DNA from: a virus
Reading direction: 5' to 3' (one strand)
IMG/VR virus record: IMGVR_UViG_3300020578_000427
Span: 1 to 24,022 of that record
Length of the DNA stretch: 24,022 nt
This document shows, one piece after another, positions 3,050-19,206 of this stretch. The position numbers and the translations under genes are program-made. The notes beneath the pieces are model-generated. The model made no database searches. It saw only the letters and a list, made by a program, of their open reading frames with translations, and was not told where the DNA came from. Position 1 is the first letter of the stretch, and the number at the start of each line of letters is the position of its first letter.

Positions 3050-3057
3050 TATAAATA
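3050..3057 (+). promoter_or_regulatory. Late promoter directly before the GIY-YIG gene
   Basis: An exact TATAAATA followed by TTATT and then ATG at 3063. The same 5-nt spacing occurs at the HNH gene before it. It begins immediately after the stop of that gene. No AGG-type ribosome site is visible upstream of this ATG. Confidence 0.6.
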
Positions 3058-3062
3058 TTATT

Positions 3063-3617
3063 ATGACTTTCTATCTTTACATCAAAACACACAATAAGAC
3101 AGGATTAAAGTATCTAGGGCAAACATCACAACAAGATCCTCATAAATATCGTGGTTCTGGAACACGCTGGATATATCATTTACGCAAGCATGGTTATGAC
3201 TATTCTACTGAAATTCTTAAAGAATGTGTGGACAAAAATGAACTTAAAGTGTGGGGATTATATTACAGTAATCTATGGAACGTGGTTGAAGATCAAACTT
3301 GGGCCAATCTAAAGCCAGAAGAAGCAGACGGTGGGCAACAATCAGAAGAAAGTAAAAGAAAAATAGGTTTAGCTTCTAAAGGAAGAAAACAGTCTATAGA
3401 ATCACGAAAAATTAATAGTGAAAAGAATTCAGGACAAAATAATCCTATGTTTGGCAAAACACATACTTTAGAAGCTAGAAAGAAAATATCAGAAACTAGA
3501 CAAAATCGACCCAGTCCTACCAAAGGTAAAATCATGTCTTTTGAACAGAAAGAAAAAATCCGTCAATCTGTCAAAGCTCGACTTGCTCTAAAGAAGAACT
3601 TAGCAGTGAATTTTTAG
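3063..3617 (+). CDS. GIY-YIG-type homing endonuclease with NUMOD3 repeats (Seg-like)
   Basis: A 184-residue protein. The N-terminal part (YLYIKTHNKTGLKYLGQT, about residues 4-21) corresponds to the GIY and YIG strands. It is followed by YRGSGTRW (about 29-36) and a KHGYD...TEIL segment typical of phage Seg-like nucleases. The C-terminal half is basic and has NUMOD3-like DNA-binding motifs, such as NNPMFGKTHTLEARKKISET and an SKGRKQSIESRK segment. Homologues in T4-like phages are free-standing homing endonucleases that cut the intergenic sequence of related phages. It runs against its neighbours, and its last 47 bases overlap the 3' end of convergent gp1. Class is fairly sure; activity and target are unknown. 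Confidence 0.8.
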   Translation: MTFYLYIKTHNKTGLKYLGQTSQQDPHKYRGSGTRWIYHLRKHGYDYSTEILKECVDKNELKVWGLYYSNLWNVVEDQTWANLKPEEADGGQQSEESKRKIGLASKGRKQSIESRKINSEKNSGQNNPMFGKTHTLEARKKISETRQNRPSPTKGKIMSFEQKEKIRQSVKARLALKKNLAVNF

Positions 3618-4248
3618 TTATATTCAGTTCTATTTGATTGTACAATTCGTCTAGTGTGCCATCGTTGTTTAGGGTAATGTCAAACTTAGTTCCTACCCAG
3701 GCTGTTTCACTAGCATGGATTCCTAACTTTTCGATATTGTGTTTGCTTAAAGCCCAATTCATGTTACGTGTAGGTCCCTTGTTCATGCTACGAGCATCAT
3801 TAAACCAAGCAGGTTCTGGTCCTCGTTTGATACGCACCACACGTCCACCTGCGTTGCGGATAGCTTTGATTTCATTCGGAAAGCGGCAGTCAGTGATAAC
3901 GATGTCATCTGTTGACTGTCGTAGGCGATTTTCTAAGCTGGCCACCCACATATCATCGTGGAATCCTTTACGCACTACTTCGGTGCCCCAATACTGTAGG
4001 ACCCAACGTGGCGTTATATCTCGCTTTAGTCGTTTGCTCCACCATTCGTCCTTGGTTTCACGCCATTCACGAGCTTGTTTAGTACGTCCTTCTAATAGTG
4101 TTCTATCCCAACCAAACACTGCCGACACAGCATCTTTAAGGCTGTTAGCAAAGCTTTCTCGTTTATACCCATGGAAATTAACTAGATAATCTGCCACTGT
4201 GTCTTTACCAGCGCCGATCAGACCTACGATACCGATGACTTGACTCAT
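3571..4248 (-). CDS. 1: Deoxynucleoside monophosphate kinase (T4 gp1-like)
   Basis: This 225-residue enzyme (T4 gp1 has 241) phosphorylates dNMPs to dNDPs for phage DNA synthesis, using ATP, in the cytoplasm. A P-loop, GLIGAGKDT, lies at residues 9-17. It is followed by DYLVNFHGYKRESFANSLKD, a TPRWVLQYWGTE motif and a DIVITDCRFPNE strand, all typical of the phage dNMP kinase family (AAA/P-loop kinase fold). The start is supported by AAGGGGATT before ATG. It is a metabolic gene embedded among virion genes. Its 3' end overlaps the convergent GIY-YIG gene by 47 bases, so an insertion there seems to have landed against, or slightly altered, the gp1 C-terminus. I see no clear late octamer before it. 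Confidence 0.88.
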   Translation of the reverse strand: MSQVIGIVGLIGAGKDTVADYLVNFHGYKRESFANSLKDAVSAVFGWDRTLLEGRTKQAREWRETKDEWWSKRLKRDITPRWVLQYWGTEVVRKGFHDDMWVASLENRLRQSTDDIVITDCRFPNEIKAIRNAGGRVVRIKRGPEPAWFNDARSMNKGPTRNMNWALSKHNIEKLGIHASETAWVGTKFDITLNNDGTLDELYNQIELNITKNSLLSSSLEQVEL

Positions 4249-4309: not shown

Positions 4310-5230
4310 TTAACCAGTTACCCACCACATTGGTTGGCCACCGTCCACATAGTTCTTGATTTCTTCGTCAAGTTTGAGTAGAAGTTCATTACCTTCTGCT
4401 TTAAGTGCTGTACCGTTTAAAGCTGTACCACCTTGCGGACCTGCTATTGAAGCAAATTTTTCACGGGCATTACCTACGCTAATTAGTGTCAAAGCATAAG
4501 CATAGTCTTGGATCCATGGAAATGCCTGCGGGTCATTTAGTAAGATCTGATCAGGTTTATAATTGTAGGTCAATAATAGCACGCTTTCTTTTACGAGATC
4601 ACTGCCTTGGATCCCACCAAATGGAATTTTTCGTATAAGAGTAAGTTTTTTAGTGACTTTGTTAAAGGTGTAGTTTATAAAACCACCAAACATCTTCATA
4701 GCCAGTTCTTGATATTGTACAAACAATTCGTAGTTTGTAAGCCCACCAACACGTCCAGCTACCAACATGTAGGTATTTAGATAACCTGATGCAAATGGTT
4801 CAAATTGGCTGGCTGTGGTACCAGATATACTGCCAATACCTCTGCGGAATATCTGTTTGACATCTATGATATAATTAGGTAAGATATATTCCTGTGTTTC
4901 GGGATATATATCTAGAAACACATAGCTTTCTTCTACTGAATTTGAACTCTTCTGGCGGTAGCGGATTAGTGCTTGTTTGATACCCATGTCGAAGTGTTCT
5001 TTGTCTGCTTCAACATCGATCATACCATAGCCTAAGCGTAGGCGGCAGTAGTCAATAATGTCATTCTGCTGTTTAGCTACTGAATCTAGCTGTGCTTGTA
5101 GATTAGCATCAAATGCGATATGCCCAGCACCTGTACCAGTTACGTTGCTATACAGACTTTTGGTCTGAACACTTAAGGTATTGGTAAGATTGCTAGATGT
5201 TGATGATATGTTTGCTGGTAATTCAGACAT
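4310..5230 (-). CDS. 13: Neck protein gp13
   Basis: A 306-residue protein, matching the T4 gp13 length (309). gp13 forms part of the neck that closes the filled head and accepts the tail. Seen in the sequence: DIIDYCRLRLGYGMIDVEAD near residues 58-77, matching the C-(L/R)-x-x-LG-x-P/G-x-I-(D/E) opening of the family. There is a central YxxYxEL-like region and the C-terminal block PWIQDYAYALTLISVGNARE, followed by KFASI, an ALNGTALKAEG segment and a final GGQPMWWVTG. That C-terminal pattern is the one I recall for T4-like gp13 of aquatic phages. The ribosome site is ACAGGAT before the ATG. That site forms one arm of a perfect 10-bp inverted repeat around the late promoter (see the 5236-5275 entry). 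Confidence 0.8.
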   Translation of the reverse strand: MSELPANISSTSSNLTNTLSVQTKSLYSNVTGTGAGHIAFDANLQAQLDSVAKQQNDIIDYCRLRLGYGMIDVEADKEHFDMGIKQALIRYRQKSSNSVEESYVFLDIYPETQEYILPNYIIDVKQIFRRGIGSISGTTASQFEPFASGYLNTYMLVAGRVGGLTNYELFVQYQELAMKMFGGFINYTFNKVTKKLTLIRKIPFGGIQGSDLVKESVLLLTYNYKPDQILLNDPQAFPWIQDYAYALTLISVGNAREKFASIAGPQGGTALNGTALKAEGNELLLKLDEEIKNYVDGGQPMWWVTG

Positions 5231-5235
5231 TTAAA

Positions 5236-5275
5236 TTATCCTGTTATCATGTATTTATTATCTACAACAGGATAA
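5236..5275 (-). promoter_or_regulatory. Late promoter inside an inverted repeat that can hide the gp13 ribosome site
   Basis: Perfect 10-bp arms, TTATCCTGTT at 5236-5245 and AACAGGATAA at 5266-5275, are separated by 20 nt. The loop contains the minus-strand late octamer AATAAATA at 5259-5252. In an mRNA made by read-through from upstream, AACAGGATAA (which holds the AGGA ribosome site of gp13) would pair with the upstream arm. A transcript started about six bases after the octamer (near 5246) lacks the upstream arm and leaves AGGA free. The arms are seen directly; the mechanism is inferred by analogy with T4 genes e, soc and I-TevI. Confidence 0.65.
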
Positions 5276-5301
5276 CTTTGCCTTTCGCTACCTTGAGGGG
5301 A

Positions 5302-6489
5302 TTAGTTTGCTTTTAATAAGATAGTATCAGCGTTGATACGACCGTTAAGTTTGATCTCTGTGGTCTTGATATTTTCAAGATACTTGCGCAACTCAACTTT
5401 GCTACTTGTTAAGAACTGTTTGATCTGTTCTTCTGGTTTTCTAAGTGTTTTTTGTGTGCTCTTGTTAGCATCATAACCCGTAATTGTGGTGCCTTTGACG
5501 CCTAGCGCACCTCCCATGGCTTCTGCTACATACTTGCCAATCTTGCGATTCTTAACATTGTAAACCCATAGAACTTCTGCACCTACGATATCTACCGGAT
5601 TGATTGACACAATCTTCAATGCAGTATCTTGCTTGAGATATTTCAAGCTCTTAACTAATTTTTCTTTTTGTGGTGGTTTGCGGACTGCGGCCTTTTTAGT
5701 GGCCTTTTTAGTTTGATTGTAAGCGGCCAAGTCTTGGAACAGTTTCTCATAGAAACTATCATAGCGTTTATAGTCTGCGGCTTTCATGTGGCTGTAGGCT
5801 TCTTTTAGTTGCTCACATTCACCCTTGCGTGCTTCTTGCACTTCTGCATGTCTAGGTTCAAACACTGAGGATATCTTGCTAATTAGTGCCTGTGGTACTA
5901 AATTCTTAACTAGGTATTCGTAGGCTTTAGGATCCACTGTTTCACCTGCGAACAATCCATCTTCAAGGATTTCAAAGTATAAGATGTGTTTCTTGGCTAC
6001 GTCATTCATGCGGTCTTGGATAGTAGGTAGTTTAACTTCAGGTTTCTTAGTGATTTTCTTTTCTTCTTCTGTGTCATCTGCTTTTAACAGTAGCACACGT
6101 TTAACAGCGTCAAAGATATATTCTACGTGTTTGTCACGCAAGGGCATGCCTTGTGTGTTGGCTTTGATCAGTGAGCAGACTGTCATTGGTGTTAGATTAT
6201 CTGCTGAACGGGCATATTGATCAATAGTAGTCTTATCTAACACGTGGATACCTTTATCACCTTCGTGTTGTCGCAACCATGCTACCACATATTTTTTAAG
6301 ATCTTTGGAACTATAATAGTAGTTGTAGTAACGAAAACTCTTGCGTAGGTGATGATCAAATTCTCCATCTGAAAAAGTTAGGGCACGATCATAGTCCCAT
6401 ACGGGTTCATTACCTGTGTATTTTTCGTCAGCAAAGTTAATATTTTTAACTTTGGCTTTCTTTTTCATGCCATCTAGTTTTATTGCCAT
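5302..6489 (-). CDS. Conserved phage protein of unknown function
   Basis: A 395-residue protein, Lys-rich and soluble in appearance, with no signal peptide or membrane segment. It opens with a basic MKKKAKVKN stretch, then an aromatic RYYNYYYSSKDLKKY region (about residues 51-65). An acidic/basic linker follows (DDTEEEKKITKK, about 139-150), then a helical middle and a Lys/Ala-rich hinge (KKATKKAAVRK, about 262-272). The C-terminal domain has a distinctive VDIVGAEVLWVYNVKNRKIG block. I believe relatives occur in other aquatic T4-like phages but cannot assign a function. The position between gp13 and the 88-residue gene suggests a role in head or neck assembly or in DNA handling; this is a guess from context. 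AAGGATACTG serves as the ribosome site. Confidence 0.75.
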   Translation of the reverse strand: MAIKLDGMKKKAKVKNINFADEKYTGNEPVWDYDRALTFSDGEFDHHLRKSFRYYNYYYSSKDLKKYVVAWLRQHEGDKGIHVLDKTTIDQYARSADNLTPMTVCSLIKANTQGMPLRDKHVEYIFDAVKRVLLLKADDTEEEKKITKKPEVKLPTIQDRMNDVAKKHILYFEILEDGLFAGETVDPKAYEYLVKNLVPQALISKISSVFEPRHAEVQEARKGECEQLKEAYSHMKAADYKRYDSFYEKLFQDLAAYNQTKKATKKAAVRKPPQKEKLVKSLKYLKQDTALKIVSINPVDIVGAEVLWVYNVKNRKIGKYVAEAMGGALGVKGTTITGYDANKSTQKTLRKPEEQIKQFLTSSKVELRKYLENIKTTEIKLNGRINADTILLKAN

Positions 6490-6502: not shown

Positions 6503-6510
6503 GATTTATA
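6503..6510 (-). promoter_or_regulatory. Late promoter-like octamer before the 395-residue gene
   Basis: The minus strand reads TATAAATC, seven of eight matches to TATAAATA, 13 nt before ATG at 6489. A direct repeat of ATACTGTAT flanks the octamer and the ribosome site. The short leader would just include AAGGAT. Confidence 0.45.
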
Positions 6511-6538
6511 TACAGTATATATGATATTCGACGTAAAG

Positions 6539-6805
6539 TCAACCACTTAATAGAACACCAAAAGTAACATACTGTTCAAATTGGGCTATTTCTTGATTTA
6601 TTTTGGCTACTAGTTCTCGGTGTTGGCGGGTTTGTTTGCCCATTCGTCGGCAATTGATTTCTTCTTCTGACAGAAGTTTAACCATGTCCCCAATATTACT
6701 GCTGATCTTTAACATTTCAGAACCATGGCGCTTCATACGTTTGGCGGCATTTTCTAGCTCAATACTAACAGATGCCCAATCTAAACTTGTAGTAATTTCA
6801 GCCAT
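6539..6805 (-). CDS. Small helical protein of unknown function
   Basis: An 88-residue protein, MAEITTSLDWASVSIELENA at the start, predicted by eye to be mostly helical with heptad-like hydrophobic spacing (ENAAKRMKRHGSEMLKISSN and following). No known motif is seen. It is divergent from gp14 (68-bp gap) and lies upstream of the 395-residue gene on the same strand, so the two may be co-transcribed. The sequence before the ATG is a 10-nt palindrome, ATACTAGTAT, followed directly by T and the start codon. There is no convincing AGG ribosome site, so the start is less certain. Coding is supported by an intact frame filling the gap between divergent genes. Confidence 0.6.
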   Translation of the reverse strand: MAEITTSLDWASVSIELENAAKRMKRHGSEMLKISSNIGDMVKLLSEEEINCRRMGKQTRQHRELVAKINQEIAQFEQYVTFGVLLSG

Positions 6806-6844
6806 AATACTAGTATAACATCATTTGATTGGGTAGTCAACGGC

Positions 6845-18431: not shown

Positions 18432-19206
18432 CTAAGATATATAATTTACAGTGTTTACCGTGCCAACGAGAGTAATTTAATTTTTTAACTGTAATAGCAC
18501 AATGCGGACAAGTTAGCATAATTTGTGTATGATGTTTACCTTCTCTTGCTAACTGTTTTAATGTGATGGTTCGTTTTTGTATCGATTCTACCGCTTTAGA
18601 TTTTCCCAACAGTGCAATTGATCTCTTTATCTTTTCTTGTGTAGACATTGGTCCTTTAGCTTTACCTAACAATGTATTACGTATTTTGTCTTTAGTTTCT
18701 TGTGTTTGTTTACGACCAGTATTTGTTGCAATCATTTTTGCAATTCTTATGACATTTTCTTCAGGTGTAAGTTTGCGTCTGTTACGAATTCTTTCTCGTT
18801 GTTTTTCTAACTCAGTGCCCACTAACTTCTTACCTTTGTTTACTGGTTCTTTATACTTATTCATTATACTACTATTCTTTGCGTGTTCAGTTTTATAATG
18901 TGCATAAACTCTAGAGGTTATTTTTGTTTCATACCGTTGATTATTATGATTACTGCTTTTAACTCGCATCATATGTAATGCGAATATCATTTTTCTTCTT
19001 GCAATATCAGTGGTCATTTTAGTTAATAACCAATGGCATATAAAATGCTCTCTAGCTGTGAGATCAACAATATTGTCTTTTTTATTACTACCACTTAAAC
19101 TGCGTGGTATAATATGATGTTTTTCTGTATAATTTGTTGTGTTGCGTTCTTTTGCTTTTTTAACTATTTGATAGTATATTTTTGTATATTTAGAATTGTT
19201 AAACAT
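18427..19206 (-). CDS. HNH homing endonuclease with NUMOD3 repeats and a zinc knuckle
   Basis: A 259-residue protein. The HNH core is TEKHHIIPRSLSGSNKKDNI at about residues 27-46, followed by LTAREHFICHWLL, with the His-His, Asn and His positions intact. Then come a Lys-rich middle, NUMOD3-type segments (NKGKKLVGTELEK, NTGRKQTQETKDKIRNTLLG and GPMSTQEKIKRSI, about 125-215), and a C-terminal knuckle, TCPHCAITVKKLNYSRWHGK followed by HC. This is the layout of free-standing phage homing endonucleases. It sits just after the gp23 terminator, a common place for such genes in T4-like phages. Its base composition is clearly more AT-rich than the flanking structural genes, a sign of separate origin. 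The stop overlaps the next gene's promoter. Confidence 0.85.
   Translation of the reverse strand: MFNNSKYTKIYYQIVKKAKERNTTNYTEKHHIIPRSLSGSNKKDNIVDLTAREHFICHWLLTKMTTDIARRKMIFALHMMRVKSSNHNNQRYETKITSRVYAHYKTEHAKNSSIMNKYKEPVNKGKKLVGTELEKQRERIRNRRKLTPEENVIRIAKMIATNTGRKQTQETKDKIRNTLLGKAKGPMSTQEKIKRSIALLGKSKAVESIQKRTITLKQLAREGKHHTQIMLTCPHCAITVKKLNYSRWHGKHCKLYILA

Follow-up and report, generated by a model that had tools for sequence, protein, structure and literature searches.

We found that the hairpin preceding the gp13 neck-protein gene of a large T4-like myovirus is conserved among related phages and, judging from the sequence comparison, is best explained in the way the first-pass annotation had proposed, i.e., it very probably serves as a cis-acting RNA switch for the temporal control of gp13. 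This is a known kind of switch, found here in new genes and phages. The window (the whole stretch of DNA analyzed, a viral contig of 24,022 bases) has a T4-like gene content that includes a gp13-like neck protein, a major head protein, tail genes, and a dNMP kinase. The regulated gene (4310..5230, minus strand) encodes a gp13-like neck protein/head-tail adaptor Ad2 (phrog_211, E = 1.3e-29), the homologs of which are annotated as neck protein; those in known phages, mostly jumbo phages, show 25–43% identity.

Direct reading of the minus strand confirmed the perfect 10-bp inverted repeat described in that annotation, with an octamer in its 20-nt loop and the AGGA of the ribosome site in its downstream arm. 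Specifically, the 5′ (upstream) arm TTATCCTGTT (5275–5266) and the 3′ (downstream) arm AACAGGATAA (5245–5236) are exact reverse complements flanking the 20-nt loop GTAGATAATAAATACATGAT, which holds the T4-type late promoter motif AATAAATA (5259–5252). The gp13 Shine-Dalgarno (SD) sequence AGGA occupies positions 5242–5239 of the 3′ arm, and 8 nt separate it from the ATG (5230–5228), so that the strand reads ...CAAAG TTATCCTGTT GTAGAT AATAAATA CATGAT AACAGGATAA TTTAA ATG. A pattern search found this arm-octamer-arm arrangement only once in the record. Counting perfect 10-bp inverted repeats whose loop is 3–30 nt long gave five in the window, compared with a mean of 0.5 and a maximum of 2 in 30 dinucleotide shuffles; a repeat of this length is therefore unusual but not unique, constitutes weak evidence alone, and has to be judged by comparison with relatives. 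The added coincidence beyond the repeat is the octamer in the loop together with the SD in the arm. Taken alone, WATAAATA shows no enrichment (4 copies in the window versus 5.3 expected), and no Rfam covariance model matched positions 4900–5600 up to E = 1. The remaining four perfect short-loop repeats lie at 2864, 14682, 17349, and 19269, the last of them just beyond where the major head protein gene ends; it may be a terminator.

A nucleotide search of the region against the phage collection gave zero matches, and searches were therefore run at the protein level. The gp13 start was available in 77 of 80 related loci, which together with the window represent 39 distinct leaders. In all 39, [ACGT]ATAAATA sits 18–23 nt before the ATG, and the octamer follows the 5′ arm, in the same order as in the window. 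In phage CBB, ATAAATA has been proposed as a late promoter before structural genes, the same paper states that it had been predicted in GAP32, and CBB encodes a gp55-like sigma (PMC5259590). Further copies in the window are found ~20 nt ahead of the start codons of ORFs that are long or of late type (6846+, 15868−, and 17325−). Based on the CBB/GAP32 prediction and these copies, we treat the octamer as a putative late promoter, with a predicted RNA start at ~5246 from T4 spacing. A homing-endonuclease-like ORF carrying a NUMOD3 motif (3050–3617, plus strand, opposite to gp13) also has TATAAATA 5 nt before its ATG.

The 10-bp repeat stood up to folding, although the predicted helix proved longer than annotated. 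The minimum free energy (MFE) structure of a 111-nt read-through RNA (−23 kcal/mol; z = −3.2 versus shuffles) contains 15 consecutive pairs, joining extended arms at 5278–5264 and 5247–5233, and 5 further outer pairs that reach the start codon. The isolated 40-mer folds at −11.8 kcal/mol, while RNA from 5247 forms only a weak fold (−4.8). Comparing long and short RNAs had been suggested as a check, and the predicted outcome was as anticipated: the probability that AGGA is unpaired was ~0 in the long RNA versus 0.52 in the late-start RNA. A helix pairing AGGA was predicted in 39/39 distinct leaders, with an unpaired probability of ~0 in read-through RNA (except for 0.25 in L064 and L065) and of 0.17–0.93 in RNA starting 6 nt past the octamer.

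The compensating arm changes that the annotation had expected in relatives are present. In an alignment of 34 distinct rows, 90.9% of the cells across 16 pairs are able to pair and 7 of the 16 pairs have changed on both sides, with a covariation score of 0.152 versus 0.079 for shuffled data (0/500 shuffles as high) and ≤0.033 for slid structures. RNAalifold on a MAFFT alignment recovered only 10 pairs because the register of L034, L041, and L080 is off in that alignment. When arms were swapped among 11 leaders, cognate combinations averaged −13.2 kcal/mol versus −10.5 kcal/mol for non-cognate ones (2/20,000 permutations as good). Divergent leaders are re-paired by other bases: AATATCCTGT/ACAGGATATT in L062, CCTGTGT/ACACAGG in L064, ATCTTATTTT/AAAATAGGAT with one G-U pair in L052, AAGTTATCCT/AGGATAACTT plus GCTG/CAGC in L080, and ATCCTA/TAGGAT plus an inner helix in L034, where the 5′ arm falls within the end of the upstream ORF. 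In L041, a 411-aa ORF separates phrog_11903 from gp13 and the leader has a different 5′ side, yet the arms are still complementary (TATCCT-C-TTATACT with AGTATAA-C-AGGATA). Arms that had diverged without re-pairing, which would have spoken against the proposal, were found in 0/39 distinct leaders. In L048 (~4460–4500, plus strand), a 144-aa gene inserted between phrog_11903 and gp13 has its own late promoter and lacks an SD hairpin; the gp13 gene downstream of it retains one.

These data also bear on whether the repeat is a DNA-level dyad bound by a protein regulator of the late promoter, with RNA pairing being incidental. Its arms are indeed symmetrical around the promoter, as in an operator, and the late promoter of I-TevI is likewise overlain by an operator (PMC2988022). 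However, a dyad predicts a fixed sequence without G-U pairs, whereas the pair at columns 23 and 53 is G-U in 22/34 rows (otherwise A-U, G-C, or U-A), L035 has two G-U among its ten pairs, and L052 uses one as well. Moreover, arm sequences vary freely provided that pairing holds, and in other clades the arms and shapes differ yet cover the SD and/or start region. Since the arms change together, including to G-U pairs, selection appears to act on RNA rather than on a DNA dyad, and we give the latter explanation a slim chance at most.

The gene order around gp13 suggests where the long RNA may originate. Upstream and co-directional lies the phrog_11903 gene (5302..6489, minus strand; family match), presumed to be early from promoter-like sequence and to be the source of read-through RNA; an 88-aa ORF precedes it (6539–6805, minus strand). 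The sigma-70-like motif TTGACT-N17-TATACT occurs on the minus strand before both phrog_11903 (6514..6542) and the 88-aa ORF (6812..6840), and the former copy could supply the read-through RNA. It is mostly kept in relatives, many of which match TTGACA-N16/17-TATAAT at 12/12 positions, and is missing directly upstream of phrog_11903 in L006, L049, L054, L057–L059, L077, and L079. Downstream of gp13 is a dNMP kinase gene with an early-type function (T4 gene 1-like; 3571..4248, minus strand; phrog_139, E = 8.1e-52; PF21448). The co-directional layout phrog_11903–gp13–dNMP kinase is one in which early RNA would cross a late gene. Counting against the switch, an imperfect late-like TATAAATC precedes phrog_11903 at 6510–6503 and might yield late transcripts with the hairpin included. 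Many relatives share a near-invariant stretch (CTCAAGGTAGCG at 5286–5297 in the window, minus strand; approximately TAATCCCCTCAAGGTAGCGTAAAG) that lies between the stop codon of phrog_11903 and the hairpin; it remains beside gp13 despite an intervening gene in L021 and L067 and is missing in L049, L057, and L058. Its GGTAG is predicted to be able to pair with CTACC in gp13 codons, giving a longer hairpin base.

A stem at this position could instead be an intrinsic terminator or attenuator that halts early RNA before gp13, and a T-run does follow the stem just before the ATG in several RaK2-like leaders (GAP32, BF, XaC1, and the RaK2 sheath), where the hairpin may do both. In the window, however, the stem has only 3 G-C pairs among 10 and is followed by TTTAA, and the minus-strand terminator scan reported none at 5236–5275 and found no terminator-like site between phrog_11903 and gp13. 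L062 is the only member of the window clade in which a T-run follows the stem. We therefore consider termination a very unlikely primary role for this hairpin.

Under the switch model, RNA from the sigma-70-like promoters (6840–6812 and 6542–6514) through phrog_11903 would carry both arms, which would fold into a helix of ~15 bp that buries the gp13 SD and leaves gp13 untranslated early. Firing of the putative late promoter AATAAATA in the loop would then produce RNA starting at ~5246 without the 5′ arm, in which the gp13 ribosome site would be accessible. We infer the timing of transcription, the T4-spaced start, and translational repression; the resemblance to the T4 e/soc/I-TevI mechanism, put forward in the first-pass annotation, is strongly supported by the comparison of leaders. 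The T4 precedents are as that annotation stated. The RBS of e, soc, 49, and I-TevI is sequestered in early RNA, and release in late-promoter RNA is documented for e and I-TevI (PMC3014915; PMC2988022), with lysozyme synthesis being ~100-fold lower from the structured RNA (PMC3014915).

As in T4 e, the predicted long RNA hides the TIR, with the SD/start paired, and a TATAAATA-type late promoter is placed so that late RNA would lack the 5′ stem strand (PMC3014915). Unlike e, the gene encodes a neck protein rather than lysozyme, the phage group is different, and the arm sequences are unrelated; furthermore, the effect and 5′ ends were measured for e, whereas the gp13 switch is predicted here from sequence. 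T4 I-TevI, soc, and gene 49 and Aeh1 mobE, too, have a sequestered RBS and, although late genes, are carried on early/middle polycistronic RNA (PMC3014915; PMC2988022); gp13, with its co-directional neighbor and the conserved sigma-70-like promoter, may share this arrangement. Those four have homing endonuclease, decoration, or recombination functions, whereas gp13 and tail sheath belong to the core of the virion, and the gp13 switch differs from them in having covariation over dozens of leaders.

To quantify sequestration, we calculated how much energy it takes to open the region from the SD to the AUG in the long RNA, in the late-start RNA, and in the long RNA after shuffling everything upstream of the promoter. 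Medians for the window clade were 14.5, 1.8, and 4.1 kcal/mol, respectively, with p ≤ 0.05 in 36/37 leaders; L064 fails to beat its shuffles (p = 0.20). In RaK2-like phages, the corresponding medians were 18.6, 4.0, and 11.0 kcal/mol for gp13 (17/17 at p ≤ 0.05) and 12.7, 1.8, and 4.7 kcal/mol for the tail sheath gene (9/9 at p ≤ 0.05). For PA5oct/Atu-like gp13 with a co-directional or presumed co-directional neighbor, they were 10.2, 2.3, and 8.1 kcal/mol; long and short RNAs differ by at least 4 kcal/mol in 14/14 leaders and 6/14 beat shuffles; in eight of them, the 5′ arm is partly downstream of the octamer, and that portion stayed unshuffled.

By comparison, gp13 genes with a divergent neighbor (Atu_ph07, Phosso, SCTP-2, Vibrio 2.275, L185, and L140) gave medians of 5.0, 2.6, and 5.0 kcal/mol, with 0/6 beating shuffles and 1/6 differing by at least 4. 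When other genes with a late promoter were taken from the window clade (homologous to either the 6874+ virion gene or the 1074-aa gene), a difference of at least 4 was seen in 3/31 and p = 0.05 was reached in 1/31. The 1074-aa gene had at first looked partly switch-like by a lenient SD measure (8/25) and was rejected, as 1/20 differ by at least 4 kcal/mol and none reached p ≤ 0.05. Taken together, the opening energies and shuffles indicate that the hairpin tracks gp13 and a co-directional neighbor, an association across orientation classes that are few, phylogenetically clustered, and not independent, with neighbors in uncultured contigs called from simple ORFs.

The leaders of other clades carry comparable hairpins with other sequences. 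In RaK2-like phages, early-type genes (nudix, glutaredoxin, macro domain, and peptidyl-tRNA hydrolase) are followed by gp13 and then by dNMP kinase and tail sheath. The gp13 leader arms are GCACCCCTATAAATA...AATAGGGGTGC in Munch and ACCCCTAAATATG...CATGTTTAGGGGT in the CBB group, and those of the RaK2-like sheath are AATCCTCCAATAAATA...TTGGAGGATT; a comparable arrangement is absent from RaK2-like dNMP kinase leaders. PA5oct-like metagenome loci carry GCTGATAAATA CTCTGT...ACAGAGG...ATGTCAGC; CTCTAT/ATAGAG and CTCTAC/GTAGAG occur there as compensated versions, and the inner 5′ arm of these loci covers approximately −5 to +1 of the predicted late RNA. In L142, the promoter bases AAATACCT are predicted to pair with AGGTATTT, and in the Atu-like L186 a hairpin lies over the start codon with phrog_11903-like C-terminal codons directly upstream. 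From their sequences, the RaK2-like gp13, RaK2-like sheath, and PA5oct-like gp13 versions look independent. A RaK2 gp13 query of viral_contigs returned only RaK2 itself and one poor match.

In phage operons, strong stems between genes can serve as sites of RNA processing, and the hairpin might accordingly be an RNA processing or stability element, e.g., an RNase III-like cleavage site in polycistronic RNA. Such a site would not be expected to have the SD in its 3′ arm, as seen in the window and RaK2-like clades, nor to keep the SD and/or start region paired in most other clades despite differing sequence and shape; in addition, the other late genes examined lack the hairpin. This explanation seems to us scarcely credible, and a switch controlling translation remains our preferred reading.

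The CBB and GAP32 late promoters predicted previously have an identical ATAAATA core before structural genes (PMC5259590). A text search of the CBB paper found no mention of "hairpin" (PMC5259590), and the predicted hairpins at gp13 and tail sheath of both phages are reported here. A full-text literature search covering few subscription journals found no description of a late-promoter RBS hairpin at tail sheath, although one may exist elsewhere. Genome-wide, switch-like starts (≥8 kcal/mol) numbered 6/54 versus 7/187 for control motifs in RaK2, 7/62 versus 8/161 in GAP32, and 4/38 versus 6/130 in PA5oct; given this moderate excess, we confine the confident claim to gp13 and sheath. A similar arrangement, TGTATCCTC...CTAAATA...GGGGATACA, whose 3′ arm contains the SD, precedes a gene for a 226-aa secreted-looking DNA/RNA non-specific endonuclease (PF01223) beside denV (RaK2, NC_019526.1, 211210, plus strand; L130:15211–15891). 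Another leader, ACTCCAAGG...GATAAATACTC...CCTTGGAGT with a T-run before the ATG and perhaps a terminator plus switch, belongs to a gene that precedes or neighbors one for a virion structural protein (RaK2 139479 and GAP32 235913, both plus strand), the RaK2 copy lying between helicase/protease and topoisomerase genes. The annotated RaK2 gp13 start (NC_019526.1, 18826) may be 12 nt early, as comparison with XaC1 and the hairpin position favor the ATG at 18838.

The classical silencing of late genes in early RNA comprises a handful of T4 cases, to which a neck-protein gene across an uncultured phage group can now probably be added. A similar logic with different sequences is seen in the isolated jumbo phages RaK2, 121Q-like, GAP32, CBB, and Munch, and also at the tail sheath gene, making the distribution of the switch unexpectedly wide and apparently recurrent. 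More generally, late genes that follow co-directional early genes in large T4-like phages may repeatedly evolve promoter-embedded anti-SD hairpins, with gene order being predictive and with sequences and shapes unrelated between clades (the window clade places its arms outside the promoter, PA5oct-like phages have a promoter-to-start arm, and in L142 the promoter bases pair with the SD), some RaK2-like hairpins with T-runs possibly doubling as terminators; we judge this generalization to have an even chance of holding. Neighbor orientation seems predictive of the hairpin, which offers a simple, testable timing rule for phage genomes that lack a transcriptome, and the switch suggests how early operons can house late genes.
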